Translations under genes and position numbers: made by a program
Assembly (NCBI RefSeq): GCF_014863585.1
Contig: NZ_CP062253.1
Location: 1,328,501-1,392,500 of the forward strand
From: Pseudomonas gozinkensis
GTDB lineage: Bacteria > Pseudomonadota > Gammaproteobacteria > Pseudomonadales > Pseudomonadaceae
Length of the DNA: 64,000 nt
Reading direction: 5' to 3'
The notes under the pieces: generated by a model
Told to the model about the DNA's origin: nothing
Seen by the model: the letters and a program-made list of their open reading frames with translations, nothing else
Database searches by the model: none
Shown here: positions 45,159-64,000 of the stretch, in pieces
Layout of the letters: each line of letters opens with the position of its first letter
Numbering within the stretch: the first letter of the stretch is position 1

Positions 45159-45902
45159 ATGCGCGTTATGCAAAAACGCAACGTATCTACCGTCTTAAGA
45201 GCACTGCTCGATCAGCACGGGATCTCCCCCACGGAGCTCCACCGTCGCACCGGCGTGCCTCAATCCACGCTCTCGCGGATTCTCAGCGGGAAGATCGTCG
45301 ATCCTTCGGATAAACACATCTCGAAGATCGCCGAGTACTTTGCCGTGAGCACCGATCAGTTGCGCGGGCGCGCGGATGTTGCGCCCACCGCCAACGCCGG
45401 ACGCGACGAGTTGCATTCCGAACTCAAGGACATAAGCCTGTGGGACGACGACACGCCAGTCGATGACGACGAGGTGTCGGTGCCCTTTCTTCGCGAGGTT
45501 GAATTGGCTGCTGGATCGGGAAGATTCGTCATCGAAGAGAGCGAGCGCTCCAGCCTGCGCTTCGGCAAGCGCAGCCTGCGCCATAACGGTGTGCAGTTCG
45601 ATCAGGCCAAATGCGTGACGGTGCGCGGCAACAGCATGCTGCCGGTGCTGCGCGACGGTGCCACGGTCGGGGTCAATGCCGGCAAGTGCGGTATCGGCGA
45701 CATCATTGATGGCGACCTTTATGCGATCAACCACAACGGTCAATTGCGAGTGAAGCAGCTCTATCGCCTGCCTACCGGTATCCGTCTGCGCAGCTTCAAT
45801 CGCGATGAGCATCCGGACGAGGACTACAGCTTCCAGGATATGCAGGAAGAGCAGATCGTCATCCTCGGTCACGTCTTCTGGTGGGGCATGTACGCCCGAT
45901 AA
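45159..45902 (+). CDS. prtR: S24/CI-type self-cleaving repressor of the tailocin locus (PrtR-like)
   Basis: 247 residues from ATG 45159 (a second ATG at 45168 and a TTG at 45132 are alternatives; none has a clear Shine-Dalgarno). The N-terminal HTH_XRE domain spans about residues 8-68 (TELHRRTGVPQSTLSRIL). The C-terminal LexA/S24 peptidase has the Ala118-Gly119 cleavage site (ELAAGSG), nucleophile Ser159 in RGNSML and base Lys199 in LRVKQ. It is expected to repress the rightward tailocin promoter and be cleaved when RecA is activated, inducing the particle during the SOS response. No PrtN-like activator gene is seen. The symbol is by analogy with pyocin PrtR. Confidence 0.88.
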   Translation: MRVMQKRNVSTVLRALLDQHGISPTELHRRTGVPQSTLSRILSGKIVDPSDKHISKIAEYFAVSTDQLRGRADVAPTANAGRDELHSELKDISLWDDDTPVDDDEVSVPFLREVELAAGSGRFVIEESERSSLRFGKRSLRHNGVQFDQAKCVTVRGNSMLPVLRDGATVGVNAGKCGIGDIIDGDLYAINHNGQLRVKQLYRLPTGIRLRSFNRDEHPDEDYSFQDMQEEQIVILGHVFWWGMYAR

Positions 45903-45920
45903 CCCGATCCCTTTCAGATA

Positions 45921-45948
45921 AAACCCGCTTCGGCGGGTTTTTTTTCGC
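45921..45948 (+). terminator. Terminator after the repressor
   Basis: AAACCCGC TTC GGCGGGTTT followed by a run of T residues, 18 bases past the stop. A strong intrinsic terminator isolating the repressor from the late operon. Confidence 0.88.
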
Positions 45949-45987
45949 CTGCACAAAACCCTCGGACCCTTGAATGACGGGGCTTTC

Positions 45988-46055
45988 ATGCATCTGCGCA
46001 TTTCTTGTGCATAAATAAATGCATTTACGCATTGACTGTATATGCATCCATGCAT
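45988..46055 (+). promoter_or_regulatory. Candidate repressor operator cluster
   Basis: Repeated ATGCAT and closely related sites occur at 45988, 46019, 46042 and 46050, with TGCGCA at 45995, TGCAT at 46008 and ACGCAT at 46027. The same short motif (TATGCA, TGCAAATCAGCATTTG) recurs upstream of the repressor at about 45106-45134. The cluster overlaps the promoter elements, as expected for operators of the S24 repressor. Binding is inferred. Confidence 0.65.
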
Positions 46056-46060
46056 ATTCT
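46032..46060 (+). promoter_or_regulatory. Strong sigma-70 promoter of the tailocin operon
   Basis: TTGACT at 46032-46037 and TATTCT at 46055-46060 with a 17-base spacer. The spacer contains two ATGCAT sites, so bound repressor would block polymerase directly. Confidence 0.8.
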
Positions 46061-46127
46061 TGCCACCAAGCCGCTCGACAAAGCGGCTGGCAACAACAGC
46101 TCTTTAGTTCCACAAGAACAGGCAGCG

Positions 46128-46238
46128 ATGAACCGGCCTCAACGGTTCAGAGGGTTGGCAACTGACCCGGGTGTGCAGCGTAAAGCACCAGAAGCAGTTA
46201 TCCGGCGGGCAGGGACCGCGGTCGGAAAAACAATCTGA
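46128..46238 (+). CDS. Possible 36-residue leader peptide
   Basis: An ATG-initiated frame of 36 codons in the tailocin leader, encoding a basic peptide (MNRPQRFRGLATDPG...VGKTI). The ribosome-binding site is weak and no homologue is recognised. It ends 86 bases before the leader terminator, so translation could influence folding of the downstream hairpins. It may equally be non-coding. Confidence 0.3.
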   Translation: MNRPQRFRGLATDPGVQRKAPEAVIRRAGTAVGKTI

Positions 46239-46324
46239 ATGGACTCGTACCGCGCCAGTAGCGCCGAAAAGTCAGCTTCCTTCACGTACACAGGATTGAA
46301 GGAAGGCAAAGGAGTGCATTACTG

Positions 46325-46352
46325 AAAAGCCCGGCGAGCTGCCGGGCTTTTT
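46325..46352 (+). terminator. Intrinsic terminator in the tailocin leader
   Basis: An 11-bp perfect stem, AAAAGCCCGGC / GCCGGGCTTTT, with a 5-base loop and trailing Ts. It lies between the promoter and the first gene, com, so the operon needs readthrough, antitermination or a second promoter. Confidence 0.88.
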
Positions 46353-46434: not shown

Positions 46435-46626
46435 ATGTTGAAAGAATGCCGCTGCGGCCATTGCAAACGACTGCTCGCCCGGGTGGGTGAGTACACAGAA
46501 CTCCAGATCAAATGTTCCCGCTGCGGAACATTGAATCATGTGAGGGCCACGAGCCCCGAGCGATCGCCTTTGAGCGACATGCGTGCTGCACCGTCAGCAC
46601 AACCGGATCATTTAACTCATAGGTAA
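46435..46626 (+). CDS. Com-like zinc-binding protein
   Basis: 63 residues from ATG 46435, with AAAGGA upstream. It resembles phage Mu Com, a small zinc protein that activates translation of mom: two cysteine pairs, Cys7-x2-Cys10 and Cys27-x2-Cys30, set in CGHCKRLLARV and IKCSRCGTLN. No mom-like DNA modification gene follows. Its target in a tailocin locus is unknown; RNA binding is possible by family. The C-terminal third is Ser/Pro-rich and probably disordered. Confidence 0.75.
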   Translation: MLKECRCGHCKRLLARVGEYTELQIKCSRCGTLNHVRATSPERSPLSDMRAAPSAQPDHLTHR

Positions 46627-46631: not shown

Positions 46632-47210
46632 ATGAACATTCTGAAAAAATACGTTGCTCCACTGCTCGCTCTTGCACTGCTGGGCAATGGGGGCAGCGCA
46701 ATCGCCGCAAACCTCCTGGTGAACGGCAGCTTTGAACAATCGACATGCGGTGGTGGCTGCATTCTGGGCACCCCTGCAAAAACCAATGCCATTACGGGCT
46801 GGACGACGTTTCTGTCCGGTGCCGAATACTTCAACATGCCCAATGCCATCGGCGGTTCCGTGGCAGCAGATGGCGTGATGATCGTTGACCTGGCCAACTA
46901 TGTTTACGGCAACGGTGGCGGGATTCAGCAGAACTTCGCGACCACTCCGGGCGCCAGGTACCGTCTGACTTTCAGTGCTGGCAACTCCCGATTCGCCAGC
47001 CGCTCCGGTGACGGTGTCATTCAGGTGAAAGTGGCCGGGCAAACCGCGACGTTCAACACACCGACAGCCAAAGGCGTCGCGGTCGAGTGGAACACTGTCA
47101 CTTACGAGTTCACCGCGATTACCGCGCAGACAACGCTGGCATTTTCCAACGAGCAGAACCCGTACGCCAACTATGCCTTTATCGACAACGTCATTGTTGA
47201 GCGCCTGTAA
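46632..47210 (+). CDS. Secreted choice-of-anchor-C / DUF642-like protein
   Basis: 192 residues. A Sec signal peptide ends near AIAA (residue 26), and mature NLLVNGSFEQ begins the classical start of choice-of-anchor C and DUF642 domains, which have galactose-binding-like jelly-roll folds. GWTTFLSGAEYF, GGGIQQNFATTPGARYRLTFSAGN and the closing FIDNVIVERL fit this family. No C-terminal sorting or anchor motif is present, so it may be released to the periplasm or outside. It lies between com and the holin and has no known role in tailocins; it could be cargo. The start ATG 46632 follows TAGGTAAAG. Confidence 0.7.
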   Translation: MNILKKYVAPLLALALLGNGGSAIAANLLVNGSFEQSTCGGGCILGTPAKTNAITGWTTFLSGAEYFNMPNAIGGSVAADGVMIVDLANYVYGNGGGIQQNFATTPGARYRLTFSAGNSRFASRSGDGVIQVKVAGQTATFNTPTAKGVAVEWNTVTYEFTAITAQTTLAFSNEQNPYANYAFIDNVIVERL

Positions 47211-47318: not shown

Positions 47319-47657
47319 ATGACAAACGAGCAACAAGCGTTGGCGGACATGCCGATCTGGCTGGTCATCCTGCTGGCCGTGGCCGGTGGCGTTTCCGGCG
47401 AAATGTGGCGCGCCGACAAGGATGGCGCCCGCGGCTGGCCATTGCTGCGACGCCTGGCCCTGCGCTCCGGTGCCTGCATGATCTGCGGCGTGTCGGCGAT
47501 CATGCTGCTGTACGCCGCCGGCATGTCGATCTGGGCCGCCGGGGCATTTGGTTGCCTGACGGCCATGGCCGGTGCCGACGTGGCCATCGGTCTTTATGAA
47601 CGCTGGGCTGCCAAGCGCATCGGCGTCTGCGAAGTTCCCCCGCGCGATCCGCAATAA
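47319..47657 (+). CDS. Tailocin holin
   Basis: 112 residues with two or three hydrophobic segments (about residues 12-30, 51-68 and 68-90) and a charged C-terminus, preceded by GGGAGG. Size, topology and position immediately before the terminator/V genes match the pyocin R holin (PA0614 position). It should form inner-membrane holes that let an endolysin reach the wall so particles can escape. No endolysin is present in the window. Confidence 0.82.
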   Translation: MTNEQQALADMPIWLVILLAVAGGVSGEMWRADKDGARGWPLLRRLALRSGACMICGVSAIMLLYAAGMSIWAAGAFGCLTAMAGADVAIGLYERWAAKRIGVCEVPPRDPQ

Positions 47658-47728: not shown

Positions 47729-48250
47729 ATGCCCACACCGATCCAGCAGCCTTCGCAGCTGTTCACCGCGATGGCGACGGCCTTGCGCAACAGCGCCGAC
47801 CTGAACGTGCAAGTCGGCAATCACGATGACTTCACGGCCCCCGGCGACAAGGCATGGGTGCTGATCGACATCGAACGAAATGCACCGGGAGAGCGCGCCG
47901 CCAACGGACGGATCGCTCATGTGCTCACGTTGTCGCTGCAAGTGATTCCGGCGGTTTCCGCTACAGCATTTGCCGCGTGCGATCTCATTGCGGCACTTAA
48001 GAATCTAGTCACGGATAACCGCTGGGGCCTGTCCGGTGATCAATGCGATCTGCCGATGAACATCGATGGATTGCCGTCATTGCTCATCCGCGCCGATCAA
48101 CCGAACAAAGCCTGGACACTGTCGTTCAACCAGACCCTCTATCTGGGCCCGACCCTGCTGGACGATCCGCTCGGCACGCCGAAATTCGCCCGGACCTGGG
48201 AGGTCAGCGACATCGACGATCCCGACCAATACACCTCGCTGGAGGCCTGA
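47729..48250 (+). CDS. Probable tail terminator/collar protein
   Basis: 173 residues from ATG 47729 with AAGGAGG upstream. No strong motif is visible. It occupies the position of PA0615 in R-pyocin clusters, between holin and gpV, and its mixed alpha/beta pattern with a C-terminal acidic tail fits small tail-completion proteins such as gp37/gpU types. It is assigned by context; the exact function is uncertain. Confidence 0.6.
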   Translation: MPTPIQQPSQLFTAMATALRNSADLNVQVGNHDDFTAPGDKAWVLIDIERNAPGERAANGRIAHVLTLSLQVIPAVSATAFAACDLIAALKNLVTDNRWGLSGDQCDLPMNIDGLPSLLIRADQPNKAWTLSFNQTLYLGPTLLDDPLGTPKFARTWEVSDIDDPDQYTSLEA

Positions 48251-48253: not shown

Positions 48254-48862
48254 ATGTTCGACGCATTACTGCGTATGCAACTGGGCCCGATCATCGAGCG
48301 CCTGGCGGAAATGGAAGCCGAGATCGAAGACTTGCACCGGCGCGCCGAGAGTTATTGCCGCATCGGCATCTGTCAGGAAGTCGATGCCGCCAGTAACACC
48401 TGCAGAGTCAGCCACGGTGGATTGCTGACACCCGCCATCAAGTTCTTCAACCCCAGCGCCGGCGCGCAGAGCGAGTCGCGGATCCCGACGGTGGGCGAAC
48501 AGTGTCTGCTGTTCAACTACGGCAGCGGTGAAAGCGGCGCGCAAAGCGTGGCGTTGTTCGGCCTCAACAGTGACCGGTTTCCGCCGGCCTCCACCGTACC
48601 GACGCTGACGCGACGGGTACATCAGGACGGCAGTGAAAGCGGCTACGACGACGCCACACACACCCTGCACTGGCAAAACGGTCCGGCCGCCTTCAGCGGT
48701 TCTCGCGAATCGCTCGAACTGAGCATCGGACCGGCGCGACTGGCGATGACCCCGCAGGCGATCAGCCTGCAACTGGGCGCCGTCGGACTGACCATCGACG
48801 CCTCGGGCGTGCACTTCAGCGGACCGCTGGTGGATCACCAGGGCCGCGTCATCAGCCCCTGA
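48254..48862 (+). CDS. Baseplate spike protein, gpV-like
   Basis: The membrane-piercing central spike of the contractile tail. The 202 residues start with a helical segment, then an OB-fold region (YCRIGICQEVDAASNTCRVSHGG) and a C-terminal beta-helix (residues about 150-202) ending LVDHQGRVISP, as in P2 gpV and R-pyocin PA0616. The ATG follows the previous stop by three bases. Confidence 0.9.
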   Translation: MFDALLRMQLGPIIERLAEMEAEIEDLHRRAESYCRIGICQEVDAASNTCRVSHGGLLTPAIKFFNPSAGAQSESRIPTVGEQCLLFNYGSGESGAQSVALFGLNSDRFPPASTVPTLTRRVHQDGSESGYDDATHTLHWQNGPAAFSGSRESLELSIGPARLAMTPQAISLQLGAVGLTIDASGVHFSGPLVDHQGRVISP

Positions 48863-48876: not shown

Positions 48877-49209
48877 ATGATCGGAATCGATAGAGACAGC
48901 GGGGCCACGGTCGACGACTGGCTGCAATTCGTGCAGCGCGCGACCCGGGCCCTGACCACGCCGCTGGGCACCCGGCAAAAACGGCCCTTGTACGGTTCGC
49001 TGATCCCGACGCTGCTGGGGCAGAACCTGGGCGACGACATCCTGTTGCTCGCCCAGAGCCACGCAGCCCAGGCGTTCTACAACCCGCAAAACGGCATCGG
49101 CGATTTCCAGCCTGGCGTGATCGTCGCCACTCGACAGGGCGCGGGGTTGTTGCTGCGATTTGCCGGCACCTGGAAAAACCGCCAACAGACTTTCGAGGTC
49201 GTGACATGA
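48877..49209 (+). CDS. Baseplate protein gpW (GPW/gp25 family)
   Basis: 110 residues with the gp25-type fold signature (LTTPLGTRQKRPLYGS; NPQNGIGDFQPG). It forms the baseplate sheath-polymerisation platform in P2, T4 and R-pyocins. The stop overlaps gpJ by four bases. Confidence 0.9.
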   Translation: MIGIDRDSGATVDDWLQFVQRATRALTTPLGTRQKRPLYGSLIPTLLGQNLGDDILLLAQSHAAQAFYNPQNGIGDFQPGVIVATRQGAGLLLRFAGTWKNRQQTFEVVT

Positions 49210-50201
49210 GCATGTTGATCCCCGGCCAGAACCAGTTGGCCGAACCCTCCTTGATCAAGGTCGATGCGTTCGAGGATCTGCTCGCCGAGTTCAAGACCTT
49301 CGTCATCGAGTACGTCGGCGCACGCTCGCCGCAGAGCGCGGAAAAACTCAAGACCAGCCTGGAAAACGAAAGCGAACTGCTGACCCTGGCCCTGGAAGCT
49401 TTCTGCGTTCGTCTGCAAACCCACGAACGCAAATACAACGCCCGGATCAAGCAGATGCTGGCGTGGTGGGCCACCGGCAGCAACCTGGATGCGCGGCTGG
49501 CGGACATGGGCCTGGAGCGGCAGTTGCTCGATCCGGGCGATCCGGCGGCATTCCCGCCGGTACCGGCGATTTACGAGAGCGACGATGACGCTCGGCTGCG
49601 CTATTACCTGGCGCCCCATGCGCCGGCGGCAGGTTCGCGGATGCAGTATCGCCGCGAGGTGTTCACCCTTGGCGAGCGGCCGGCGGTGAAAGTCGAATCC
49701 ACCGATGCGGGTGTGGTGAACGTCACTTACACCTTCGACCCGGACGGTCTCGCCGCGCAGGTCAAGGACGGTAACGGTCGCCGCACGGCGCCCGGTGAAG
49801 TGCAGGTGACTGTGCTTGCCCGCGACGCTGACGGCACACCGTCCGCCGCGCTGCTCGACGGCGTGCGCAAACATTTTGCCCGGCCGGATGTTTGTCCGGA
49901 AACCGACAAAGTAACGGTCAAAGGCGCCGAGATTCAGCGCTACAAAATCCGCGTCGTGGCCAGGATCAATTCCGGCCCGGATTCGGGCCTGACCAAGGTC
50001 GCCGCCCAGCAACACTTGCAGGCCTACGCCGACAGCTGCCATCGCCTGGAAGGCCGGGTCGATCCGAGCTGGATCGACTACACGCTGCACAGCGCCGGCG
50101 CCGTGCAGTTGCAGATTGTTGAACCGCTGACGCCGATCGTGTGCACGGCGTTTCAAGCGCCGTACTGCACGGCGGTTGAAGTCGAGGTACAGACGCTATG
50201 A
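49206..50201 (+). CDS. Baseplate wedge protein gpJ
   Basis: 331 residues of the Baseplate_J family; it forms the wedge triangle with gpI. YESDDDARLRYYLAPHAPAAGSRMQYRRE and ESTDAGVVNVTY are characteristic. The ATG overlaps the gpW stop, and the stop overlaps gpI by four bases, indicating tight translational coupling. Confidence 0.92.
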   Translation: MSMLIPGQNQLAEPSLIKVDAFEDLLAEFKTFVIEYVGARSPQSAEKLKTSLENESELLTLALEAFCVRLQTHERKYNARIKQMLAWWATGSNLDARLADMGLERQLLDPGDPAAFPPVPAIYESDDDARLRYYLAPHAPAAGSRMQYRREVFTLGERPAVKVESTDAGVVNVTYTFDPDGLAAQVKDGNGRRTAPGEVQVTVLARDADGTPSAALLDGVRKHFARPDVCPETDKVTVKGAEIQRYKIRVVARINSGPDSGLTKVAAQQHLQAYADSCHRLEGRVDPSWIDYTLHSAGAVQLQIVEPLTPIVCTAFQAPYCTAVEVEVQTL

Positions 50202-50833
50202 CCGATCAGACAGCGCGTCCGACCCTGCTGCCGGCCAACAGTTCGGCGCTGGAACGGGCACTCGACATCGGCTTCGGCGCATTGCTTGATCGCGTCGCGC
50301 CGCCGTTTCCCGAACTGATGAACCCGGCTTCGACACCCGTTGCGTTCCTGCCATATCTGGCGGCGGATCGTGGTGTTGCCGAGTGGAGCACCGACGCACC
50401 GGAAGCGGAAAAGCGCCTGACCGTCGAACTGGCTTGGCCCACCGCGCGCCAGGCCGGCACTCGCAAGGCGCTGGAGAACGCCGCCAAGGGCTTGCAGCTC
50501 AGGCCGGAAATTCGCTCTTGGTACGAACAGACACCGCCCGGCGAGCCTTACAGCTTTTCCGTTCGGGCCTTCAGCGAGCAACCCTACAGCGAAGAAATCG
50601 ACGCCCGTCTCGACCGACGCCTGGCTGATGCCAAGAGCGAACGGGACGTGCTGTCGGTGTCGGTCGGCCTCAGCGCCTTCGGCAATCACGTCATCGGCGC
50701 CGCGACTTTCTGCGGTGAGCTGACCACGGTTTATCCGGTTTTCCTCGAAGGGCTCGAGACATCCGGCGAGGCCTTCATGGCGGCTGCGCTGTACACCGTC
50801 GAAACATCCACTATTTATCCTCAGGGGGCCTGA
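50198..50833 (+). CDS. Baseplate tail protein gpI
   Basis: 211 residues of the P2 gpI family, which connects the wedge to the tail fibre. LLPANSSALERALDIGFGAL and YLAADRGVAEWSTDAPEAEKR are typical. The fibre gene begins at the next base after its stop. Confidence 0.9.
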   Translation: MTDQTARPTLLPANSSALERALDIGFGALLDRVAPPFPELMNPASTPVAFLPYLAADRGVAEWSTDAPEAEKRLTVELAWPTARQAGTRKALENAAKGLQLRPEIRSWYEQTPPGEPYSFSVRAFSEQPYSEEIDARLDRRLADAKSERDVLSVSVGLSAFGNHVIGAATFCGELTTVYPVFLEGLETSGEAFMAAALYTVETSTIYPQGA

Positions 50834-53593
50834 ATGGCTGACTATTACACCCTGCTCACCAACGCAGGGATTGCCTACGAAACCGCCTGCAAGGCAGCGG
50901 GCACGCCGATCAAGTTGACGCAGATTTCCGTCGGCGATGGTGGTGAGGGCGGGGTCTACAACCCGGCCGCAACCGCTACCGCACTGAAACGCGAAGTCTG
51001 GCGCGGTCCGCTCAATGCGCTGTTCCAGGACGAGAAGAATCCGAGCTGGCTGCTCGCCGAAGTCACCATTCCGCCGGACGTCGGCGGCTGGTATGTGCGT
51101 GAAGCCGGGCTGTGGACAGACACCGGCATTCTCTACGCCATCGTCAAATACCCGGAGTCGTTCAAGCCGGTACTGGCTAACTCCGGCTCGGGCAAGGAGT
51201 TCTACATCCGCTCGATTTTCGAGACCAGCAATGCCTCGCTGGTGACGCTGTTGATCGATGACACGGTGGTCAAGGCCACTCGCGCCTGGGTCATGAGTTA
51301 CCTCGCCGAAGAACTCGGCAAACTTGATGGCAAGCAATCGGTACGTGTCGCCGCCACCGCCAACGTGGTGTTGAACGGTGCGCAGCAGATCGACGGCGTG
51401 GCGGTGATCGCCGGTGACCGCGTGCTGCTGCCGAACCAGACCCTGGCCAAGGACAACGGTCTGTGGATCGTCGCCAACGGTAACTGGATTCGGGCGAACG
51501 ATGCCAACGTCAGCGCCAAGGTCACACCGGGCCTGACGGTGATGGTGGAAGAGGGCACGCTCAACGGCGATTCGCTGTGGCACCTGACCACCAACGCGCC
51601 GATTACCCTCGGCACCACTGCGCTGACATTCAAGATGCTGGCAGGGCGCACCGGGATTGCTGCCGGCACTTACAAGAGTCTGAGCGTCGACGAATACGGC
51701 CGCGCGACGGCCGGGTCGAACCCCGACACGTTGTCCGGGTTTGGCATCAAGGATTCGTACACCAAGGCTGAAGTCGAGGCGCTGATTGCCAAGGCCTCGG
51801 CATTGCCGGTGGGGTCGATTGTTGCGTTCCCGGTTGACTCGCCACCTCCGGGTTTTCTGGAGCTGGACAACAGCGTCAGGAGCAGCGCGACTTACCCGGA
51901 CTTGAGCGCCTATCTGGGTGGCAAGTTCAACAAGGGGGATGAGGGCGTCGGGAATTTCCGCTTGCCTGAGGCGCGTGGGGAGTTTTTGCGGGGTTGGGAT
52001 CATGGGCGCGGCATCGATGGCGGTCGGGTAATCGGCAGTTCTCAGAGTGACACGCTGCAGAACATCTACGGCACCTTCGATGGCTATCTCGATATCACCA
52101 CCGTAAGTGGCGCATTCACAATGGGCAACATGAGCCGGTCCTCATCGTCGCTCAATCAGAAAGACGCTTACCACAGTGTGATCCTTGATGCTTCAAAGGT
52201 GGCTCGAACTTCTGCGGAAACCCGTCCCCGCAACATCGCCGTCATGTGGTGCATCAAGGCCTGGAATGCGCCGATCAATCAGGGAAACATCGACGTAGCC
52301 GCACTGGCCAAGGAAGTCGAAAAGCTCAAATCCTCCGTTCCGGTCGGTGCTGTCCTGTCGTTCCCAATGGGCGTCGTGCCTGCCGGTTATCTGGAACTGG
52401 ATGGCAGCGTACAGAGCATTGCGACCTATCCGGATCTGGCGGCGTATCTCGGCACTACGTTCAACAAGGGAGATGAAGGTGCCGGGAATTTCCGCTTGCC
52501 AGAGTCTCGTGGTGAGTTTCTACGCGGCTGGGATCATGGGCGGGGCATCGATATCGGCCGTAGTGTCGGCAGCTATCAGGCAGGTACAAAGACTCAGGGC
52601 GATGACGGCACGGCCCCAGCTGTTCAAGGTATCGGCAACTCCAGTTTGATCGATGCCGATCCGGCTCCTGGTTTCAGTGGCGATATTTACTACACCGCTA
52701 CCGATGTCACCGTGAAGAACTTTACCAACGCGTTCTGGAAAACGGTTCGCCCACGCAACCTCGCCGTGATGTGGTGCATCAAGGCCTGGAATGCACCGGT
52801 CAATCAGGGAAGCATTGATGTTGCCGCGTTGGCAGCTGAAACCAGACTGGCTCGACTCAACGGCGCAGAAGTAGGCGCCGCGCGTAATCTGAGAATGTCG
52901 CTGCCTGTCGCCGCATCGGTTGCAACGCTGACCGCTGACCAACTGATTGTCGAGCAGCCGGGTGTTGGCCAGTACAAGTTGTCTAACGTCAACTTGTCCA
53001 TCGACCTGACAACGGTCGGCGCTGGCGGAATGGACATTGGTGCTGCTCCTGCCAGTGGCAGCGTCGGCATCTATGTTATCTACAACCCTGACTCCAAAGT
53101 GGCGAAGATGTTGGCCGTCAACGCCACTTCGATTTCAATCCCTGAAGTCTACGGCGGTTCCAATATGCCAGCCGGTTACACAGCAAGTGCGCTGGTCAGT
53201 ATCTGGCAGACCTATGCGAGTCGACTGATGTTATCTGGTACCCAATATCAGCGGTTGGTATCCATCGGCAAAACGTCGATTCTGTCCAACGGCGTGTCAC
53301 AGACATGGACACCCCTTTCTCTGGCAGCTGTGGTTCCGAAGAACGCCAAGACAGTTGGCGGATATGTTCACTACATTGCGAATGCTGAAACGGGTGGAGG
53401 CGGTTACCTGGGAATCGCGTCCGATGCAACGGGTAGTGGAATGAAGACTATCGGAATTGGTGGAGTAGCCAGGCTGGGGGTTCTGAGCGCATTTTCCGAC
53501 ATGGCAATGACGACGTCCCAGACGATTTACTACACCGTGGATACATCCGTACCGAGTGCAAACAGCATCTTTATCTCGCAATACAGTTTTTAA
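50834..53593 (+). CDS. Tail fibre with duplicated collar domains
   Basis: The receptor-binding fibre that sets killing range. The 919 residues begin with a P2 gpH/DUF3751-type baseplate attachment domain (YYTLLTNAGIAYETACKAAG, QISVGDGG, to about residue 150), a linker of beta repeats, then two tandem phage tail collar domains starting near residues 324 (LPVGSIVAFP) and 502 (VPVGAVLSFP), spaced about 178 residues. A unique C-terminal tip follows from about residue 680. The duplication is visible at DNA level (51803-52310 versus 52337-52835). Two chaperone genes follow. Confidence 0.9.
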   Translation: MADYYTLLTNAGIAYETACKAAGTPIKLTQISVGDGGEGGVYNPAATATALKREVWRGPLNALFQDEKNPSWLLAEVTIPPDVGGWYVREAGLWTDTGILYAIVKYPESFKPVLANSGSGKEFYIRSIFETSNASLVTLLIDDTVVKATRAWVMSYLAEELGKLDGKQSVRVAATANVVLNGAQQIDGVAVIAGDRVLLPNQTLAKDNGLWIVANGNWIRANDANVSAKVTPGLTVMVEEGTLNGDSLWHLTTNAPITLGTTALTFKMLAGRTGIAAGTYKSLSVDEYGRATAGSNPDTLSGFGIKDSYTKAEVEALIAKASALPVGSIVAFPVDSPPPGFLELDNSVRSSATYPDLSAYLGGKFNKGDEGVGNFRLPEARGEFLRGWDHGRGIDGGRVIGSSQSDTLQNIYGTFDGYLDITTVSGAFTMGNMSRSSSSLNQKDAYHSVILDASKVARTSAETRPRNIAVMWCIKAWNAPINQGNIDVAALAKEVEKLKSSVPVGAVLSFPMGVVPAGYLELDGSVQSIATYPDLAAYLGTTFNKGDEGAGNFRLPESRGEFLRGWDHGRGIDIGRSVGSYQAGTKTQGDDGTAPAVQGIGNSSLIDADPAPGFSGDIYYTATDVTVKNFTNAFWKTVRPRNLAVMWCIKAWNAPVNQGSIDVAALAAETRLARLNGAEVGAARNLRMSLPVAASVATLTADQLIVEQPGVGQYKLSNVNLSIDLTTVGAGGMDIGAAPASGSVGIYVIYNPDSKVAKMLAVNATSISIPEVYGGSNMPAGYTASALVSIWQTYASRLMLSGTQYQRLVSIGKTSILSNGVSQTWTPLSLAAVVPKNAKTVGGYVHYIANAETGGGGYLGIASDATGSGMKTIGIGGVARLGVLSAFSDMAMTTSQTIYYTVDTSVPSANSIFISQYSF

Positions 53594-54621: not shown

Positions 54622-54649
54622 AAACGCCCCGCACCGTCGGGGCGTTTTC
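54621..54649 (+). terminator. Terminator after the fibre chaperone
   Basis: AAAACGCCCC paired with GGGGCGTTTT with a 9-base loop, starting at the chaperone stop. It closely resembles the hairpin at 54112-54136. Confidence 0.85.
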
Positions 54650-54696: not shown

Positions 54697-54719
54697 TCCC
54701 GTTTATGGAGAAACGAAAA

Positions 54720-57442: not shown

Positions 57443-59695
57443 ATGGCAGAGAGCAAATTTGCGCTCACATACGCCAATGAGAGTGGCAACGCAGCAGCCG
57501 GGTTAAAGCTGCCCGATGGCCTTGGCAAACCACTGCAGGACTTGAACCTGACAATGGCGCTGGCGAGCGCGGATATCCGCTTGCTGACCCAGGAGCAGAT
57601 CAAGCTGCGGGAGCTGCTGGTCAGCCAGCAGTCGTTGTTCAAGGTCGTCACGGCGCCGCCCGCCGCCAATAGTGAGACGAAGTCGAAACTCAAGGCGGAA
57701 ATCGAGCAGCGTCCGCCACCGAAAAGACTGCAATCAGCCATGGCCAACGAGACGGCGCTGGTTGAATTGAATCAGGTGCTGCACCTGAGCACGAAATCGC
57801 TTCAGGCTCTTTCGGAAAAGAACCTGGAAATCGCCAGTGATAAACGGGTTGCCCCCAGCGGGGCTACCGGCGCGGATCTGTTGCAAGTGCAACTCGCCGG
57901 GCTGCGGTCCGGCATAAGTGATGGTCTGAAGGGCGAGCAGAAAACCGAGGCGTTACGGGATTTCTCTCGTGATGCTGCCATCAATGCCTCGGCCTTCAAG
58001 ATCGATGTCAAGGCTGCTGGCGAAATGTTGTCGGGCTGGCGCACCGCTCTGAAGCTTGATCGGGTGCAGAGCCAGGATCTGGCAGACGCGACCAATTACC
58101 TTGGCAACAGCGGCTTGAACGTCAAAGCTGCTGACATCGGCTCCGTCGTTCAAAGCGCCGGTGAGGGCGCCAAAGCTGCAGGGATGACACCCGAGCAAGT
58201 GGCTGGACTGGCGGCGGCGTTCCTCAACAGCGGCGCTAACAAGACAGATGCCGCAGCGGCGCTGAAGGGATTCACGACGGTTCTGGGCAAGGGAGAGTCG
58301 GCGTCACCGGCGCAGCGCTCGGCCTGGGCCGAAATGGGTCTGAACCCCGAGTCGCTGGCGCGTGGGATGAGTGACGATGCACCCCAAACGATCAAGCTGG
58401 TTCTGGAGCAGCTCAAGAAACAACCGGAAGAGAAACAGGCTTCGCTGACCAAAACGCTGTTTGGCAACAATGATGCAATCCTTGAGTTGTTGAAGAAGCC
58501 TGAGGATGTTCAAACGGCGTTCAAGCTGGTTTCTGACAAGTCCGTGTATGCAACATCCAGACGCGGTGAGGATGCAGGCTCGGCGGCAGAAACCGCTGCG
58601 ACTTATGGCAATACATCCCAAGGGCGCTGGAATGCGCTGGATGCGAGTCTCAACCGGCTGTCCACGGCAGTCGGCAATGCATTGGCCCCGGTGACAGACG
58701 GCATTGCCATCGGGCTTACTGCGGTGGTCAATGGACTGGGCGCAGCGGCCGAAACCTTCCCCTTCGTCACCGCTGCACTGACACTGCTTGGGGTGGCTGC
58801 CACGCCGTTCGTGGCGGGCGCGCTGAAAACCGGTGTGTCTGCAGTACTTGATGCGGTCTCCACGAGACTTCTGCGCCTGGCCGCAGCTCGGTTACCGTCC
58901 GACATCGGCGATATGATCACCGGTGACGATGACAACGGTGGCGGTCGTAAAAAGAAACGATCGTCTCGCAAGTCGGGTCGGGGCAAACAGGCCAAAGCCT
59001 CTGCGAAAAGTGCTCAGCCTAGCAAGCCCGCGGTTCGTCAAAGCCTGGGCAATCGCCTGCGCGGTGCAGCGATGAAGGTCATGCCTTCGATCAAGCGTGC
59101 GGCTGCCAGGGTCTTGCCTGCGGTGCGGAGTGCCGGAGCCAAGGTCATGCCTGCGGTGCGGAGCTTCGGAGCCAAGGTCATGCCGATGCTGTCCCGGATG
59201 GCACCTTTGGCGGGTAAGGTCGCTGTCCCGTTGATGGTGGCGCACGCCGCTTACACAGGTCTCAAAGGCGTGCGAGAAGGTGATGAGAAAGCGGTGGGAA
59301 GCGCAAAGGGTGAGCTGGCGGGGACAGCCATTGGCGCTCTGGTCGGCTCGTTTATTCTTCCGGGTTTCGGTACTGCCATCGGGAGTATCGCGGGTGGATA
59401 TTTCGGCTCATTGGTGGGAGAAGCACTCGCAGACCCGCCCGCCGACAAACTCGCTGCGCCGGGAGATGTCGCTAAAAACCTGGTCAACGCGCCCACCCAA
59501 AGTCAAAACCAGCAAGTCACCTTCTCCCCACTGATCCAGGTCACCTGTCCGGCACCGGATACTGCCGAGCAGATTCGCTCGATCATCGGGCAACAACTGA
59601 GCGGACAATTCCACGGCCAGTTCCTGCCGCTGTTGACCAACAACCCGCTCGCCACCCGCCGTGATGCAGCCCTGACCGATGGAGTCGCCCGATGA
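57443..59695 (+). CDS. Tail tape measure protein (P2 gpT-like)
   Basis: 750 residues that set tail length. A helical N-terminal half is followed by hydrophobic segments (about residues 425-455 and 590-660, the latter with Gly-rich IGALVGSFILPGFGTAIGS), a basic linker (KKKRSSRKSGRGKQAK) near residues 493-510, and 11-residue repeats (AKVMPAVRSFG) near residues 543-587. It overlaps gpU by four bases. Confidence 0.9.
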   Translation: MAESKFALTYANESGNAAAGLKLPDGLGKPLQDLNLTMALASADIRLLTQEQIKLRELLVSQQSLFKVVTAPPAANSETKSKLKAEIEQRPPPKRLQSAMANETALVELNQVLHLSTKSLQALSEKNLEIASDKRVAPSGATGADLLQVQLAGLRSGISDGLKGEQKTEALRDFSRDAAINASAFKIDVKAAGEMLSGWRTALKLDRVQSQDLADATNYLGNSGLNVKAADIGSVVQSAGEGAKAAGMTPEQVAGLAAAFLNSGANKTDAAAALKGFTTVLGKGESASPAQRSAWAEMGLNPESLARGMSDDAPQTIKLVLEQLKKQPEEKQASLTKTLFGNNDAILELLKKPEDVQTAFKLVSDKSVYATSRRGEDAGSAAETAATYGNTSQGRWNALDASLNRLSTAVGNALAPVTDGIAIGLTAVVNGLGAAAETFPFVTAALTLLGVAATPFVAGALKTGVSAVLDAVSTRLLRLAAARLPSDIGDMITGDDDNGGGRKKKRSSRKSGRGKQAKASAKSAQPSKPAVRQSLGNRLRGAAMKVMPSIKRAAARVLPAVRSAGAKVMPAVRSFGAKVMPMLSRMAPLAGKVAVPLMVAHAAYTGLKGVREGDEKAVGSAKGELAGTAIGALVGSFILPGFGTAIGSIAGGYFGSLVGEALADPPADKLAAPGDVAKNLVNAPTQSQNQQVTFSPLIQVTCPAPDTAEQIRSIIGQQLSGQFHGQFLPLLTNNPLATRRDAALTDGVAR
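59069..59203 (+). repeat. 33-bp in-frame repeats within the tape measure gene
   Basis: Units at 59069-59101, 59105-59137, 59138-59170 and 59171-59203. The second and third units match at 28 of 33 bases. They encode an 11-residue A-(K/R)-V-(M/L)-P pattern. Confidence 0.8.
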
Positions 59696-60075
59696 AACAA
59701 CAAATGGCACTGGGCAGTTTCATCTTCGGTCTGTCCCGGGATTTTGCGTACAGCACGCTGTCGCGAAAATCCGAGGGTGGCTGGACCGAGTTGCAGATCC
59801 TCAACAGCAAACCCAGATCCCATCAGACGGGGCAGAAGCCTGAAACCCTGACCATCTCCGGCACCTCGATGTACGCCGTGGCGATGGATCGGCTCGATGA
59901 GCTGCGTGCGCTGCAAGCGTTGAGAGCGCCGCTGCCGTTGATTGACGGTATTGGCCGCAACTGGGGTTTGTGGCGGATCAACAGCATCGACGAAAACCAG
60001 AGCGAGGTCATCGATGACGGCACCGCGATGGTGATCAAGTGGGTCATCGGATTGTCGGAGTTCAACAATGCGTAA
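59692..60075 (+). CDS. Tail protein gpU
   Basis: 127 residues of the P2 gpU family (LGSFIFGLSRDFAYSTLSRKS; DGIGRNWGLWRI). In P2-like tails it belongs to the baseplate hub or tail completion set. It overlaps gpT and gpX at its ends. Confidence 0.88.
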   Translation: MKQQMALGSFIFGLSRDFAYSTLSRKSEGGWTELQILNSKPRSHQTGQKPETLTISGTSMYAVAMDRLDELRALQALRAPLPLIDGIGRNWGLWRINSIDENQSEVIDDGTAMVIKWVIGLSEFNNA

Positions 60076-60280
60076 GGTACGAAGCGTGGCCGGTGATTCG
60101 GTGAATCTTTTGCTGTACCGCGAAACCGGTCGCAGCGATGACAGCGCCGAAGAAGCCCTCTGGACACTCAACCCGACCCTGGCCGAGCACGGCCCGATCC
60201 TGCCGGCAGGTGTCTGGGTGACACTGCCGGAACTCGATAGCAAACCGGCCGCGATCAGACCGGTTATGGCCTGGGATTAA
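60068..60280 (+). CDS. Tail protein gpX (LysM-like)
   Basis: 70 residues of the P2 gpX family, a small hub protein with a LysM-like fold (GDSVNLLLYRETGR; NPTLAEHGPILPAGVWVTLP). The start overlaps the gpU stop by eight bases. Confidence 0.88.
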   Translation: MRKVRSVAGDSVNLLLYRETGRSDDSAEEALWTLNPTLAEHGPILPAGVWVTLPELDSKPAAIRPVMAWD

Positions 60281-60289: not shown

Positions 60290-61318
60290 ATGGCACAGGG
60301 ATTTACGCCGGCGATCGAAATCTACGGCGCCAACAAGGACCTGCTGAACCAGCGGCTGATCAGTTGGGAACACATCGATGCCGCCGGTATGGAGTCCGAT
60401 CAACTGACGCTGGTGCTCGACCTGGAAGGCCTTGAAGGCTTGCCGACCCTGGGCGGCATCATCGGCCTGCGGGTGGGGTATCTGGAGACCGGGCTGGTCG
60501 AAAAGGGCCAGTTCAAGGTCACTCGACTGACACCGACGCTGTTCCCGCTGCGCCTGACGCTGGTCGCGACCGCCGCGCCTTTCAGCGGCAAGGACGAAAC
60601 CGGATTCAAGGAACGGCGCACGGCCAGTCATGGCCCCACGACGCTGGGCGGGCTGTTTCGCAAACTGGTCGAGTCGCACGGTTTCTCGCCGCGGGTCGAT
60701 CCCGAACTGGCGCTGATCAGGATCGCTCATGTCGACCAGTCGAACGAAACCGACATGGGTTTCATCACACGACTGGCGAAAAAGTACGACGCGGTGGCCA
60801 AACCGTTCAACGACCTCTACGTACTGGCGAAACCGGCGCAGCTCAAAACCCTGTCGGGTCAGGTGATACCGAACGTCAGGCTGTCGGTGACCCACACCAA
60901 TCGGCCGGGCGATCACGCCTTCATCAGCGCCACGCTGGAAGAGACCGCCCGCACCCAGAATCAGGGTTGCAAAGTCTGCTGTTGGGACGCCAATGCCGGC
61001 AAGCAGGTGGAGGTGAAAACCGGCTCGGCACCCTTCAAGGTCATTCGTCAGAAACAGGCCAGTGTGGAAGAAGCCAAAGCCATCGGCGAAGCCGAAGTGC
61101 GCAAGATGCTGCGCGAGAAATACACGCTGAAAGTCACCTGTCCGGGTGATCCGCTATTGGTTGCCGAAGGCCTGCTGGTGCTCGATGACACCTGGCCGGA
61201 CTTCATGCGCGGTCGCTGGTCGATCGAGAAGGTGACTGCCAGCGGCAAGCCCGAAGAAAGCTATCGCTGCCTGATCGAAGCAAACGGCCGGGATCCCGAG
61301 GCAAAAGCCAAGGACTGA
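60290..61318 (+). CDS. Baseplate hub protein gpD (late control D)
   Basis: 342 residues. The tail hub that holds the spike; homologous to P2 gpD and VgrG/gp27. FVTRLAKKYDAVAKPFNDLYVLAKP and VTCPGDPLLVAEG are typical. In R-pyocins it is followed by endolysin and spanin genes; here the second tail module follows after 61 bases. Confidence 0.92.
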   Translation: MAQGFTPAIEIYGANKDLLNQRLISWEHIDAAGMESDQLTLVLDLEGLEGLPTLGGIIGLRVGYLETGLVEKGQFKVTRLTPTLFPLRLTLVATAAPFSGKDETGFKERRTASHGPTTLGGLFRKLVESHGFSPRVDPELALIRIAHVDQSNETDMGFITRLAKKYDAVAKPFNDLYVLAKPAQLKTLSGQVIPNVRLSVTHTNRPGDHAFISATLEETARTQNQGCKVCCWDANAGKQVEVKTGSAPFKVIRQKQASVEEAKAIGEAEVRKMLREKYTLKVTCPGDPLLVAEGLLVLDDTWPDFMRGRWSIEKVTASGKPEESYRCLIEANGRDPEAKAKD

Positions 61319-61379: not shown

Positions 61380-61964
61380 ATGAAGATCTCCCCGATCCTC
61401 ACGCAGCTGCGTGCGCAATGCCCAAGCCTTGGCGGCCATATCGCGACAGGTGTCGACCTGGCGCTGCTGCAAGGTGACCCGAATCTGCCGATGCCCTCGG
61501 CCCATGTTTCACCGCTGGCCGATCTGGCCAGCGCCAGCACCGCCCAGAACTCCGCCAGCCAACCGATCCGCGACCGCTTTGAAATCATCCTGGCACTGGA
61601 TGCCACGGACGCCACAAAAGCGCTGGATCTGTTGCACGACCTGCGCGCCGAACTGTGGCGTGCGCTGGTGGGATTCAAACCCGCAACCGACTACAGCGCC
61701 ATCGTTTATGACGGCGGCGAAACGGTCTCGATCAACAGCAGCCGCGCCTTCTACCGGCTGCGCTTTTTTGCCGAGTTCCAGCTGGGCCGCAATCTGCCAA
61801 GTCAGCCTGCGGAGAGTTGGCACGAACGCGAACTGGACGGTTTGTCGTCCTTTACCGGGGCCACCGTGCGGGTCGATGCGATCGACCCGGCCGACCCCAA
61901 TCTCAAACGCCCGGGCCCTGACGGGCGCGTGGAAATGACTTTCTCTGGAGACGTAACCCCATGA
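61380..61964 (+). CDS. Mu gp37-like tail protein (second module)
   Basis: 194 residues. A phage tail terminator-like protein of the gp37/DUF1834 type judged by position before a DUF2635-like gene and sheath (Mu order 37-38-L) and by segments such as RDRFEIILALDA and FYRLRFFAEF. It has no P2-type counterpart. It overlaps the next gene by four bases. Confidence 0.7.
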   Translation: MKISPILTQLRAQCPSLGGHIATGVDLALLQGDPNLPMPSAHVSPLADLASASTAQNSASQPIRDRFEIILALDATDATKALDLLHDLRAELWRALVGFKPATDYSAIVYDGGETVSINSSRAFYRLRFFAEFQLGRNLPSQPAESWHERELDGLSSFTGATVRVDAIDPADPNLKRPGPDGRVEMTFSGDVTP

Positions 61965-62140
61965 GCAACCGCATCACCGTAGTGCCGGCCGCCGGCCGTG
62001 CCGTGCCGGACCCGGAAGCAGGCGATCTGCTGCCACTGGAAGGCCGTGAAGTGCTGGACAGCGCCTGGTGGCGCCGGCGTCTGGCCGACGGCGATATCAC
62101 CCTCAAAACCGCAACAGCTAAACAAAAGGGAGCCAAATAA
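61961..62140 (+). CDS. DUF2635-like protein (Mu gp38 position)
   Basis: 59 residues: RITVVPAAGRAVPDPEAG, LEGREVLDSAWWRRRL and GDITLK are the pattern of DUF2635 proteins, which precede sheath genes in Mu-like tails. It overlaps its neighbours on both sides and is too short for many gene finders. Confidence 0.78.
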   Translation: MSNRITVVPAAGRAVPDPEAGDLLPLEGREVLDSAWWRRRLADGDITLKTATAKQKGAK

Positions 62141-63636
62141 TGGCGATCGGATTCAGCAACATTCCTGCGGACATTCGTGTACCGCTGTTCTATGCCGAAA
62201 TGGACAACTCGGCCGCCAATAGCGCGTCCTCGTCCATGCGCCGCCTGATCGTGGCGCAGGTCAACGACAACATCGCGCCGAGCGAAGTCGGCAAACTGGT
62301 GCTGGTTTCCAGCGTGGCACTGGCCAAGAGCATTGGCGGCCAGGGCTCGATGCTGGCGTCGATGTACGAGACCTTCCGCAAGGCCGACCCGATCGGCGAG
62401 ATCTGGTGCCTGCCGCTGCACAACGCCACCGGCGCCATCGCCAAAGGCGTGCTGACCCTGACCGGCACCGCGACTCAGGCTGGCATTCTCAACCTGTATG
62501 TCGGCGGCGTCCGCGTGCAGGCCACCGTGGTCAACGGTGCCACCGCTGCCCAGGCGGCCACCGCCCTGGCACAGAAAATCAACGCCACCGCCGATCTGCC
62601 GGTAAGCGCTGCGGCGGCCGAAGGCGTCGTCACTCTGAACGCCAAATGGACCGGCGAGAGCGGCAACGACATCAGCCTGCAATTCAATCGCCTGGGCAAG
62701 AGCAACGGCGAAGAAACCCCGGCCGGCCTGACCACCGCGATCACCGCCATGACCGGCGGCGTCGGTGTACCTGACCAGGTTGAAGCAGTTGCCGCACTGG
62801 GCGATGAGCCATTCGAATTCATCGCGCTGCCATGGTCCGACCTGGCCACCCTCAACACCTGGCAAGCGGTGATGGACGACAGCACCGGTCGCTGGTCGTG
62901 GGCCAAGCAACTGTTCGGTCACGTCTACAGCGCCAAGCGCGGCACCGTCGGCACGCTGGTGGCGGCCGGTCAGGCGCGCAACGACCAGCACATGACCATT
63001 CAGGCGCTGGAGCCGGGCGTTCCGCAACCGGTATGGGTACAAGCTGCAGCACTGGCTGCGCGCACGTCGGTGTTCATCTCGGCTGACGCCAGCCGTCCGA
63101 CCCAGAGCGGCAGCCTGCCAGGCGTCGATCCGGCACCGGCCAGCGAGCGCTTCACCCTGACCGAGCGTCAGTCGCTGCTCAACTACGGCATCGCCACCGC
63201 GTACTACGAAGGCGGTTACGTGCGCATCCAGCGCTCGATCACCACCTATCAGAAAAACGCTTACGGCCAGGCCGACAACTCGTACCTGGACAGCGAAACC
63301 ATGCACCAGTCGGCGTTCATCGTGCGTCGTCTGCAAAGCGTGATCACCAGCAAGTACGGTCGCCACAAACTGGCTTCCGACGGCACCCGTTTCGGCGCCG
63401 GCCAGCCGATCGTCACCCCGGCGACCATTCGCGGTGAGCTGATCGCCCAGTACGCCAAGCTCGAACTCGAAGGCCACGTGGAAAACGCCGAGCTGTTCGC
63501 CGAGCACCTGATCGTCGAACGCGACGTGCAGGACCCGAGCCGCGTGAACGTGCTGTTCCCGCCGGATTACATCAACGGTCTGCGCGTGTTCGCACTGCTC
63601 AACCAGTTCCGTCTGCAGTACGACGACGTCGCCTGA
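62140..63636 (+). CDS. Contractile tail sheath protein (Mu gpL/SfV-like)
   Basis: 498 residues, unrelated in length and N-terminus to the 388-residue sheath of the first module. FSNIPADIRVPLFYAEMDNSA and the C-terminal EHVLVERD-like segment (AEHLIVERDVQDPSRVNVLFPPDY) are typical of Mu-type sheaths. The protein contains an inserted beta domain near residues 100-200. It shows a second, independent contractile tail is encoded. Confidence 0.92.
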   Translation: MAIGFSNIPADIRVPLFYAEMDNSAANSASSSMRRLIVAQVNDNIAPSEVGKLVLVSSVALAKSIGGQGSMLASMYETFRKADPIGEIWCLPLHNATGAIAKGVLTLTGTATQAGILNLYVGGVRVQATVVNGATAAQAATALAQKINATADLPVSAAAAEGVVTLNAKWTGESGNDISLQFNRLGKSNGEETPAGLTTAITAMTGGVGVPDQVEAVAALGDEPFEFIALPWSDLATLNTWQAVMDDSTGRWSWAKQLFGHVYSAKRGTVGTLVAAGQARNDQHMTIQALEPGVPQPVWVQAAALAARTSVFISADASRPTQSGSLPGVDPAPASERFTLTERQSLLNYGIATAYYEGGYVRIQRSITTYQKNAYGQADNSYLDSETMHQSAFIVRRLQSVITSKYGRHKLASDGTRFGAGQPIVTPATIRGELIAQYAKLELEGHVENAELFAEHLIVERDVQDPSRVNVLFPPDYINGLRVFALLNQFRLQYDDVA

Positions 63637-63661
63637 TCGGCTCGTTTGACACTGTGATTTC

Positions 63662-63684
63662 AGCCCACCTTGCGTGGGCTTTTT
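63662..63684 (+). terminator. Hairpin between the second sheath and tube genes
   Basis: A 7-bp stem AGCCCAC / GTGGGCT with a 5-base loop and a T-run, between two genes that should be coexpressed. It may attenuate tube relative to sheath. Confidence 0.65.
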
Positions 63685-63703
63685 ATTTGAAGGGAGTAAC
63701 ACC

Positions 63704-64000
63704 ATGGGTCAACTGATTGCAGGCACCTGCTACGTCAAGGTCGACGGTGCACAACTGACCATCAACGGCGGCTGCGAAGCCCCGCTGATGGCCGTCAAAC
63801 GCGAAACCGTCGTGCCGGGTTTCTACAAGGAAACCGACATCGCGCCATCGTTCAAGGTGACGGCGCTGCACACCGCCGACTTCCCGCTGAAGAAGCTGAT
63901 CGAAGGCACCGACATTACCGTCACCTGCGAATTCAGCAACGGCAAAGTCTACGTACTGGCCGGTGCCTACCTGGTCGAAGAGCCAGTCTCCAAAGGCGAT
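63704..64000 (+). CDS. Tail tube protein, Mu gpM-like (partial)
   Basis: The first 99 residues of a tail tube protein, cut by the window end. GTCYVKVDGAQLTINGGCEAP and ETVVPGFYKETDIAPSFKVT match Mu/SfV-type tubes. The start ATG 63704 follows AGGGAG. Tape measure, baseplate and fibre genes of the second module would follow beyond the window. Confidence 0.88.
   Translation, partial: MGQLIAGTCYVKVDGAQLTINGGCEAPLMAVKRETVVPGFYKETDIAPSFKVTALHTADFPLKKLIEGTDITVTCEFSNGKVYVLAGAYLVEEPVSKGD

Follow-up and report, generated by a model that had tools for sequence, protein, structure and literature searches.

A tailocin cluster of about 34 kb lies between mutS and cinA-recA in the chromosome of Pseudomonas gozinkensis. 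We analysed it starting from a stretch of 64,000 nucleotides (the window; positions 1328501-1392500 of the 6.56-Mb single-contig chromosome), which was then extended downstream to cinA/recA. In the extended stretch, called L002, a position equals the window position minus 60000; features beyond the window are given in extended window coordinates unless L002 is named. The gene order is mutS (reverse strand), prtR, a leader, com, a DUF642 gene, the holin gene, a P2/R-pyocin-like tail module (module 1), a Mu-like tail module (module 2), five fibre/chaperone pairs, lysozyme, a spanin-like gene, cinA and recA. With one PrtR and one lysis set between mutS and cinA/recA, the cluster is a member of the mutS-cinA class of tandem tailocins. 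The pair of tailocins thus belongs to a known class, and the new part is the leader, which contains a conserved structured RNA.

The promoter, the leader RNA and the terminators

The product of prtR (45159..45902, + strand) is a LexA/CI-type repressor with the Pfam domains HTH_3 and Peptidase_S24, and the gene is followed by an intrinsic terminator (45922..45939, +; a hairpin of -10.4 kcal/mol and a T run). The only promoter-like site found on the + strand in 44900-64000 is a sigma70-type promoter, TTGACT-17-TATTCT, at 46032..46060. Three exact + strand copies of ATGCATNNRYGCAT accompany it: operator 1 at 45988..46001, operator 2 at 46019..46032, covering the first base of the -35 hexamer, and operator 3 at 46042..46055, in the spacer and touching the -10 hexamer. 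Judging from this position, the putative operators are probably bound by PrtR. No further exact copy of ATGCATNNRYGCAT is present in the window, and none in L002 even when one mismatch is allowed. Consensus promoters on the + strand were likewise absent from L002:1000-19500, fewer than in shuffled sequences, in a scan that is blind to non-consensus sites.

Both sheath proteins of the cluster were searched in 149 genomes sampled from the genus, and 40 clusters with sheath 2 at about 81% identity or more, from 60 genomes with any match, were compared to the window (41 clusters including its own). All 37 clusters in which prtR, cinA and the leader are present, the window's own included, keep the promoter and at least two operators with one mismatch allowed, and in 27 of these 37 no operator match is found downstream inside the cluster.

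After the promoter, a leader of about 300 nt is strongly conserved and is present in 37 of the 41 clusters. Three of the four clusters lacking it show no prtR, mutS or cinA in the available stretch, and in the fourth (G130) prtR is close to cinA and apart from the holin gene. Covariation defines within the leader a structured RNA of 122 nt (46119..46240, +) with four conserved hairpins at 46129-46149, 46152-46168, 46170-46189 and 46201-46226. The consensus fold contains 26 pairs, 12 of them with compensatory changes; 99% of the alignment cells are paired, and 42 cells are doubly changed. Shuffled alignments gave 4.3 pairs and 6.8 cells (none of 500 reached the observed values), and the same structure slid along the alignment gave at most 4 pairs and 4 cells. 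No Rfam 15 family reached its gathering score over 46061-46365, the best being RsmY with 22.7 bits against the 57 required. A small protein encoded over the RNA (a 36-codon ATG frame) was considered and rejected, because 15 of 39 aligned copies stop within the first 24 codons while the RNA pairs are kept.

Between promoter and RNA lies a boxA-like octamer, GCTCTTTA (46099..46106, +), conserved in leaders of this type. It occurs within 60 nt upstream of the RNA in 34 of 34 distinct leaders (40 of 40 loci, 39 of them with prtR in the available stretch); in 5,522 control windows its frequency was 0.036%. Both 16S genes listed for the genome are likewise preceded by this octamer, which begins 161 nt before them, at the place of the rrn boxA; of two rrn boxA variants tried, one had no match and the other a single match, upstream of 16S.

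The leader ends in a terminator, AAAAGCCCGGC-GAGCT-GCCGGGCTTTTT (46325..46351, +). Of 40 leaders of this type, 38 have a terminator-like hairpin 170-230 nt after the RNA start, vs. 11 of 231 control windows, as scored with a laxer rule that also gave 10/40, 2/32 and 29/576 in the phage, plasmid and IMG/VR controls, the 11/231 being control set A. The strict terminator scan caught the leader terminator in only one of 37 clusters, its T run lying partly in the stem. Inside the 37 clusters, internal terminators had a median of three on the sense strand vs. none on the opposite strand. In the window's cluster five were found, one of them inside the lysozyme frame. They include a bidirectional one at 54624..54645 (+), one between the sheath and tube genes of module 2 (63662..63680, +), present in 36 of 37 clusters, and two intercassette terminators among the module 2 fibres (72381-72399 and 74150-74171).

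The RNA is not confined to tailocins. By BLAST it was found in 11 of 50,697 phage records (one being the Q8r1-96 tailocin), in 27 of 72,556 plasmid records, all from Pseudomonas, and in 65 of 99 genomes of the genus, the matches in nine of these being confined to pieces outside the core. A pattern derived from the alignment matched at least 120 IMG/VR stretches. A covariance model built from 39 chosen sequences and run with strict filters identified it in 171 of 298 genus genomes, in 10 of 119 family genomes (3 of 19 genera) and, in a sample of the order, in one of 145, namely the window's own genome. In four phages the RNA lies near a repressor at the head of an operon. In PseuP_224, Medea1 and Aurca01 it is downstream of CI and in the same direction, with two opposite-strand open reading frames between them in Medea1 and one open reading frame in Aurca01; in Orimi01 the RNA and a repressor-like gene are divergent. 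In Medea1 and Orimi01, ERF recombination genes are found some kilobases downstream of the RNA. Lambda-type phages carry nutL at a comparable place beside the repressor. The plasmid copies adjoin LexA and Cro genes or a helix-turn-helix gene, and in two of four the RNA is upstream of a lytic transglycosylase gene; the copies at L187:5001-5114, L211:3001-3114, L186:5001-5148 and L210:3001-3148 are on plasmids of the P. syringae group. At 80 IMG/VR loci, a related repressor was found within 4 kb upstream in 56 and not in 14, the remaining 10 having too little sequence; tailocin genes were present in 32.

No protein family was common to the viral loci adjoining the RNA (open reading frames of at least 40 residues within 1.3 kb), the largest being the holin in 24 of 72, and no lambda N-like gene was found at the operon start in the viral loci or in Mu-only clusters, where, as in G002, the holin gene comes straight after the leader. 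Since no common protein family stands beside the RNA, host factors would be likelier partners for it than a dedicated antiterminator protein.

Two tail modules, five fibres and one lysis set

The interval from prtR to cinA measures 34,060 bp, of which annotated genes account for 94%, and none of these genes has an internal stop; no start codon is present at the listed starts of tfa A (71951) and cinA, so both coordinates need shifting. The flanking genes, which we take to be mutS (5' flank of prtR, reverse strand), cinA (about 79963-80493) and recA (from 80565), were named with the annotation of EU982300 as a guide. Two variable cargo genes follow the leader: com, for a Mu Com-like Zn ribbon (46435..46626, +; PF10122), which few of the 41 clusters have between prtR and the holin gene, and a DUF642 gene (46632..47210, +; PF04862), present at the leader-holin position only in some relatives. 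The lysis set is split. The holin (47319..47657, +; PF16085) forms its 5' half, and at the 3' end of the cluster there are a GH19-type lysozyme gene (78849-79412) and a spanin-like gene (79394-79924), the latter named from shape and place as it has no family match. PrtN (PF11112) gave no match in the genome, in a search whose control likewise matched in none of 14 genomes.

Module 1 (47729-61318) has the gene order V-W-J-I-fibre-tfa-sheath-tube-E-T-U-X-D, all on the + strand. It begins with a gene of unknown function (47729..48250; PHROG 1072), followed by the gpV spike (48254..48862; PF04717 at 23.1 bits, just below the cut-off of 23.8), the gpW baseplate wedge (48877..49209; PHROG 43), gpJ (49206..50201; PF04865) and gpI (50198..50833; PF09684). 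The fibre of 919 residues (50834..53593; PF12571, PF07484 twice) has two collar domains; the duplicated collar segment (51845-52833) aligns at several offset positions in relatives, which suggests that the repeat number within this gene changes. Then come a DUF4376 protein adjoining the fibre (53604..54113; PF14301), the fibre chaperone (54199..54621; PHROG 188), a small protein 5' of the sheath (54705..54905; PHROG 6423), the sheath of 388 residues (54908..56074; PHROG 23), whose best solved structure by sequence is the R-pyocin sheath 3j9q (E 5e-19), and the tube (56074..56580; PF04985). The gpE chaperone (56733..57314; PF10109) presumably has a frameshift product, gpE', reaching 57436 without a start of its own, an assignment carried over from P2. 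The module is completed by the tape measure T1 (57443..59695; PF10145), gpU (59692..60075; PF06995), gpX (60068..60280; PF05489) and the gpD hub (60290..61318; PHROG 52, tail protein). With sheath, tube, tape measure, baseplate, fibre and chaperone, and no head or integration gene recognised, module 1 is by its predicted genes an R-type tailocin.

Only 61 bp separate it from module 2 (61380-71001, past the window's end). On the + strand this module comprises a tail terminator protein (61380..61964; PF23840), a small protein of 59 residues (61961..62140; PHROG 208, DUF2635 being the name in an earlier note on this DNA), a sheath of 498 residues (62140..63636; PF04984/PF17482, PHROG 165), for which the best solved structure by sequence is the contractile sheath 9khy (E 5e-89), and a tube identified in L002 (63704..64000 in the window, ending at 64051). 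From the tube to 79924, L002 contains genes for a chaperone, a tape measure (TMP2, L002:4472-6046), a circularisation-type protein and gp44/45/46/47/48-like proteins, followed by the five fibres, the lysozyme and the spanin-like gene. By its predicted genes, module 2 encodes a complete contractile tail with fibres. The two sheaths show no significant similarity by BLASTP (E 0.23), the tubes likewise, and the sheaths belong to different PHROG sheath families (23 vs. 165).

The earlier note, made from the sequence alone, had predicted two unrelated contractile tailocins in tandem, and as far as sequence allows this is borne out, including the R-pyocin/P2 order of module 1, the Mu-like module from 61380, both confirmed by family matches, and the two sheath lengths. 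Its single repressor was recovered as the one PrtR, a statement now sharpened by the single operator-promoter region and by the lack of + strand consensus promoters inside the scanned stretch. Its expectation that capsid, terminase and integrase genes are missing held up to cinA: among the family matches of the genes between prtR and cinA there are no head, packaging or integration families (capsid, terminase, integrase), and no replication gene was recognised there; one PHROG match of fibre D is labelled 'head and packaging' and covers the fibre-like part of that protein. A second module without baseplate or fibres, which would have spoken against two tailocins, was not what the extension revealed. 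Its one holin was confirmed as part of a single lysis set, which is split, only the holin being at the 5' end. The five-fibre array with a shared anchor and the hypervariable tape measures had escaped that note.

The five fibre/chaperone cassettes occupy 71016-78792 (L002:11016-18792, +). Their fibres have in common an N-terminus of 75 residues, with 32 of 75 columns invariant, and differ in the remainder, except for A and B, which are related. Counted by domain E-value, 105 fibres of this type are present in the 41 clusters: one in 16 clusters, two in 7, three in 4, four in 7 and five in 7. The order of the fibre head families is conserved: 112 of 115 ordered pairs follow the majority order, while 2000 shuffles averaged 67% agreement and never exceeded 80%. 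This test left out family pairs seen once and ignored the relatedness of the genomes. The window genome (G000) and G016 have four cassettes in common, the third carrying different alleles of one head family, as expected for replacement in place. The fibre heads would set the targets, and the shared anchor should yield mixed or heterotypic module 2 particles.

The tape measures behave differently from the sheaths. In the 17 other tandem genomes the median identity to the window is 98% and 97% for the two sheaths, and 41% and 40% for T1 (476-824 residues) and TMP2 (503-703 residues); for the module 1 fibre it is 47% (16 genomes), the tape measures being as variable as fibres. Between the window and G016 the genes flanking the tape measures are 97-100% identical, T1 59% and TMP2 41%. 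In DNA, identity to G016 is about 95% to just inside the TMP2 gene, is lost in the middle of the gene and is back at 93% in its 3' end, so that the interior of the tape measure looks as if it had been replaced. Among 74 genome pairs with a module 2 core identity of at least 92%, 51% have TMP2 below 60%, and among 50 pairs with a module 1 core of at least 90%, 78% have T1 below 60%; four distant genomes were left out of this comparison. The five ordered fibre slots and the hypervariability of the tape measures offer leads on how the killing range is built.

The P2-like and Mu-like pair is in tandem in 18 of the 149 sampled genomes (the window's and 17 others), the P2-like module always first, between the holin gene and the Mu-like module; a draft genome (G035) has both modules on different contigs. 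Many relatives, such as G002, G058 and G049, have prtR, leader and holin gene followed by the Mu-like module alone, while in G073, G061 and G071 the slot of module 1 is taken by a P2-like module that is only distantly related (27-40% identity), and in G062 and G036 by unrecognised content. Because relatives carry different content or none in this slot, the common head (prtR, leader, holin gene) and tail (lysozyme, spanin-like gene, cinA) flank, by comparison of the gene orders, exchangeable tail modules.

How the cluster may be transcribed

We consider it probable that both tailocins and their lysis genes form one long operon, punctuated by terminators and driven by a put/nut-like antitermination leader. 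PrtR would hold the three putative operators over one promoter, and DNA damage, as its S24 domain leads one to expect, would trigger its self-cleavage. The transcript would begin with the leader, that is with boxA, the four-hairpin RNA and the intrinsic terminator. boxA and the folded RNA, with the host Nus factors, would render the RNA polymerase resistant to termination, in the manner of nut, put and rrn leaders, and the modified polymerase would pass the leader terminator and several internal ones. The holin gene, both tailocins, the five alternative fibres, the lysozyme and the spanin-like gene would then be transcribed as one operon of about 33 kb, and the split holin-endolysin-spanin set would free both particle types at once. 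Antitermination is proposed because of the boxA, the terminator-rich operon without a consensus restart promoter on the + strand and the position of the RNA near repressors, and on these grounds we think it likely as the function of the structured leader. A broader proposal has, in our estimate, even chances of being right: that the RNA is an uncatalogued family of processive antitermination RNAs using host factors only and common to Pseudomonas tailocins, temperate phages and conjugative plasmids, which in tailocins would unite two tails, up to five fibres and lysis into one SOS-controlled operon.

Several observations weigh against this interpretation. The exact GCTCTTTA is present in only 47 of 73 IMG/VR copies of the RNA, in 4 of 18 other chromosomal copies, in 2 of 5 GenBank phages and in none of 4 plasmids, and is absent in eight copies (L192-L199) that have a distant sheath gene 6-10 kb downstream, and so probably stand at the head of other tail clusters. 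As the exact octamer is missing in so many copies, boxA cannot be essential for every copy. The terminator after the RNA is also rarer elsewhere (6 of 18 other chromosomal copies, 34 of 73 IMG/VR copies, 0 of 5 phages and 0 of 4 plasmids). The aligned leaders are related, so that the shuffle control overstates the significance of the covariation and does not give a probability; folded singly, the sequence shows only ordinary stability (z -0.97), and its minimum-energy structure is partly unlike the consensus. The record of phage PseuP_224 annotates a small hypothetical coding sequence over the RNA. Finally, 10 of the 37 clusters hold one or two one-mismatch operator matches inside.

It was also observed that L192, L193 and L194 have an ATGCAT-type operator-like repeat and the RNA, with no boxA between promoter and RNA; in these copies boxA may be dispensable.

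The same variability of boxA, together with the extreme conservation of the RNA loops and the good terminator behind 38 of 40 leaders of this type, as in attenuators, would suit a free-standing small RNA or an attenuator responsive to a ligand or a protein, in which termination at 46351, after 300 nt, would be the default and would be relieved by a signal. We regard this as unlikely, since in five phages and four plasmids no terminator was found after the RNA, which is therefore not tied to one local terminator, and since, where its surroundings were examined, the RNA stands near repressors at the start of long operons, the tailocin operons carry more terminators downstream, and the boxA close upstream points to Nus factors.

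Rather improbable, too, is a separate transcription of the two tailocins from promoters missed by the consensus scan, with terminators delimiting the units and PrtR controlling only the first. The strong terminators between sheath and tube of module 2 and between fibre cassettes would fit such units, and promoter scans do miss non-consensus sites; however, the 61-bp gap between the modules contains no operator or promoter-like site, and in the Mu-only clusters of G002, G058 and G049 the same prtR-leader-holin head stands directly before the Mu-like module, which argues that this module natively uses that head. That the locus is simply a prophage in decay, or combines a prophage with a tailocin, is extremely improbable: both modules derive from phage tails, but no frame is broken, genes for heads, packaging, replication or integration were not recognised, and the core proteins are highly conserved in the 18 tandem genomes, as the sheath identities of 98% and 97% illustrate.

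If antitermination by the leader, working without a phage protein, is true, it would represent an RNA-based antiterminator in a genus where our literature search found none described. Work on tailocins has centred on specificity and killing, and how a terminator-punctuated cluster of 14-35 kb is expressed from one SOS-type promoter is little addressed in the searchable literature. The boxA and RNA leader offer a directly testable answer, and would tie tailocin control to phage and plasmid operons.

Comparison with known systems

Tandem tailocins at mutS-cinA were already known, as the earlier note recognised, and the parts of that literature accessible to us describe close counterparts (PMC7815802, PMC8319346, PMC12090994). 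At mutS-cinA, P. protegens CHA0 and P. chlororaphis have two R-tailocins that differ in origin, with PrtR and shared lysis genes; in P. chlororaphis the lysis cassette is shared, and one of the tailocins has three fibre genes, from which three complexes are made (PMC7815802, PMC12090994; the latter summarises Dorosky 2017/2018). The separate origin of the two tailocins is as in our cluster, which has five fibre cassettes, and the sections of these accounts that we saw do not mention a leader RNA or antitermination. The Rp3/Rp4 tandem tailocins belong to mutS-cinA clusters with 1-4 particles of mixed ancestry, according to the portions seen of Carim et al. 2021 (PMC8319346). The tandem architecture is therefore not new: the pair recurs in 18 of 149 genomes and comparable clusters are published, so the novelty once claimed for the combination is not supported. 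The novelty claimed for the shared control survives in part, in that something new is present there, namely the RNA leader, which the earlier note had not mentioned.

The Mu-like tailocin of Q8r1-96 (EU982300) has, as here, prtR, Com, holin, a Mu-like module, lysozyme and cinA, and carries the same RNA, unannotated, at 1905-2026. Unlike our cluster, it has a colicin M gene between the holin gene and the Mu-like module, at the place of the P2-like module, and its annotation lists two fibre/collar genes. The gene that it carries between Com and holin was considered as a relative of the DUF642 gene and rejected, as there is no similarity (BLASTP E 0.25).

Multiple fibre genes in tailocin clusters are known, and an ordered array of up to five fibres is not described in the parts seen of the same reports (PMC10598620, PMC12090994). 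Carotovoricin of Pectobacterium has a variable fibre locus and a variable tape measure between chaperone and gpU, unexplained in the text available to us (PMC13195805); in contrast to our cluster, an invertase is present in part of the carotovoricin loci, and that text mentions no array of five fibre genes.

Among RNAs, EAR (epsC) of Bacillus is a cis-acting RNA with transcription antitermination activity, as stated in the part of the report consulted (PMC2864571); it comes from an unrelated phylum, and the Rfam scan of our leader gave no match to it. No description of the leader RNA was found in the literature on Pseudomonas or HK022 put, boxA/nut, tailocin antitermination and prophage structured RNAs, few subscription papers being covered. 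The leader resembles lambda nut and HK022 put, in which a leader with hairpins follows a repressor-controlled promoter and precedes a long terminator-rich operon, boxA being present in nut and in rrn. HK022 put is a cis RNA of two stem-loops that acts without a phage protein. Our leader differs from nut, put and rrn leaders in its four-hairpin structure, in that no N-like gene was found in common and in matching no Rfam family. As judged from general descriptions of these leaders, it shares with lambda nut, HK022 put and rrn boxBAC the leader position (nut, put), the boxA (nut, rrn), the hairpins and the long, terminator-rich operon.

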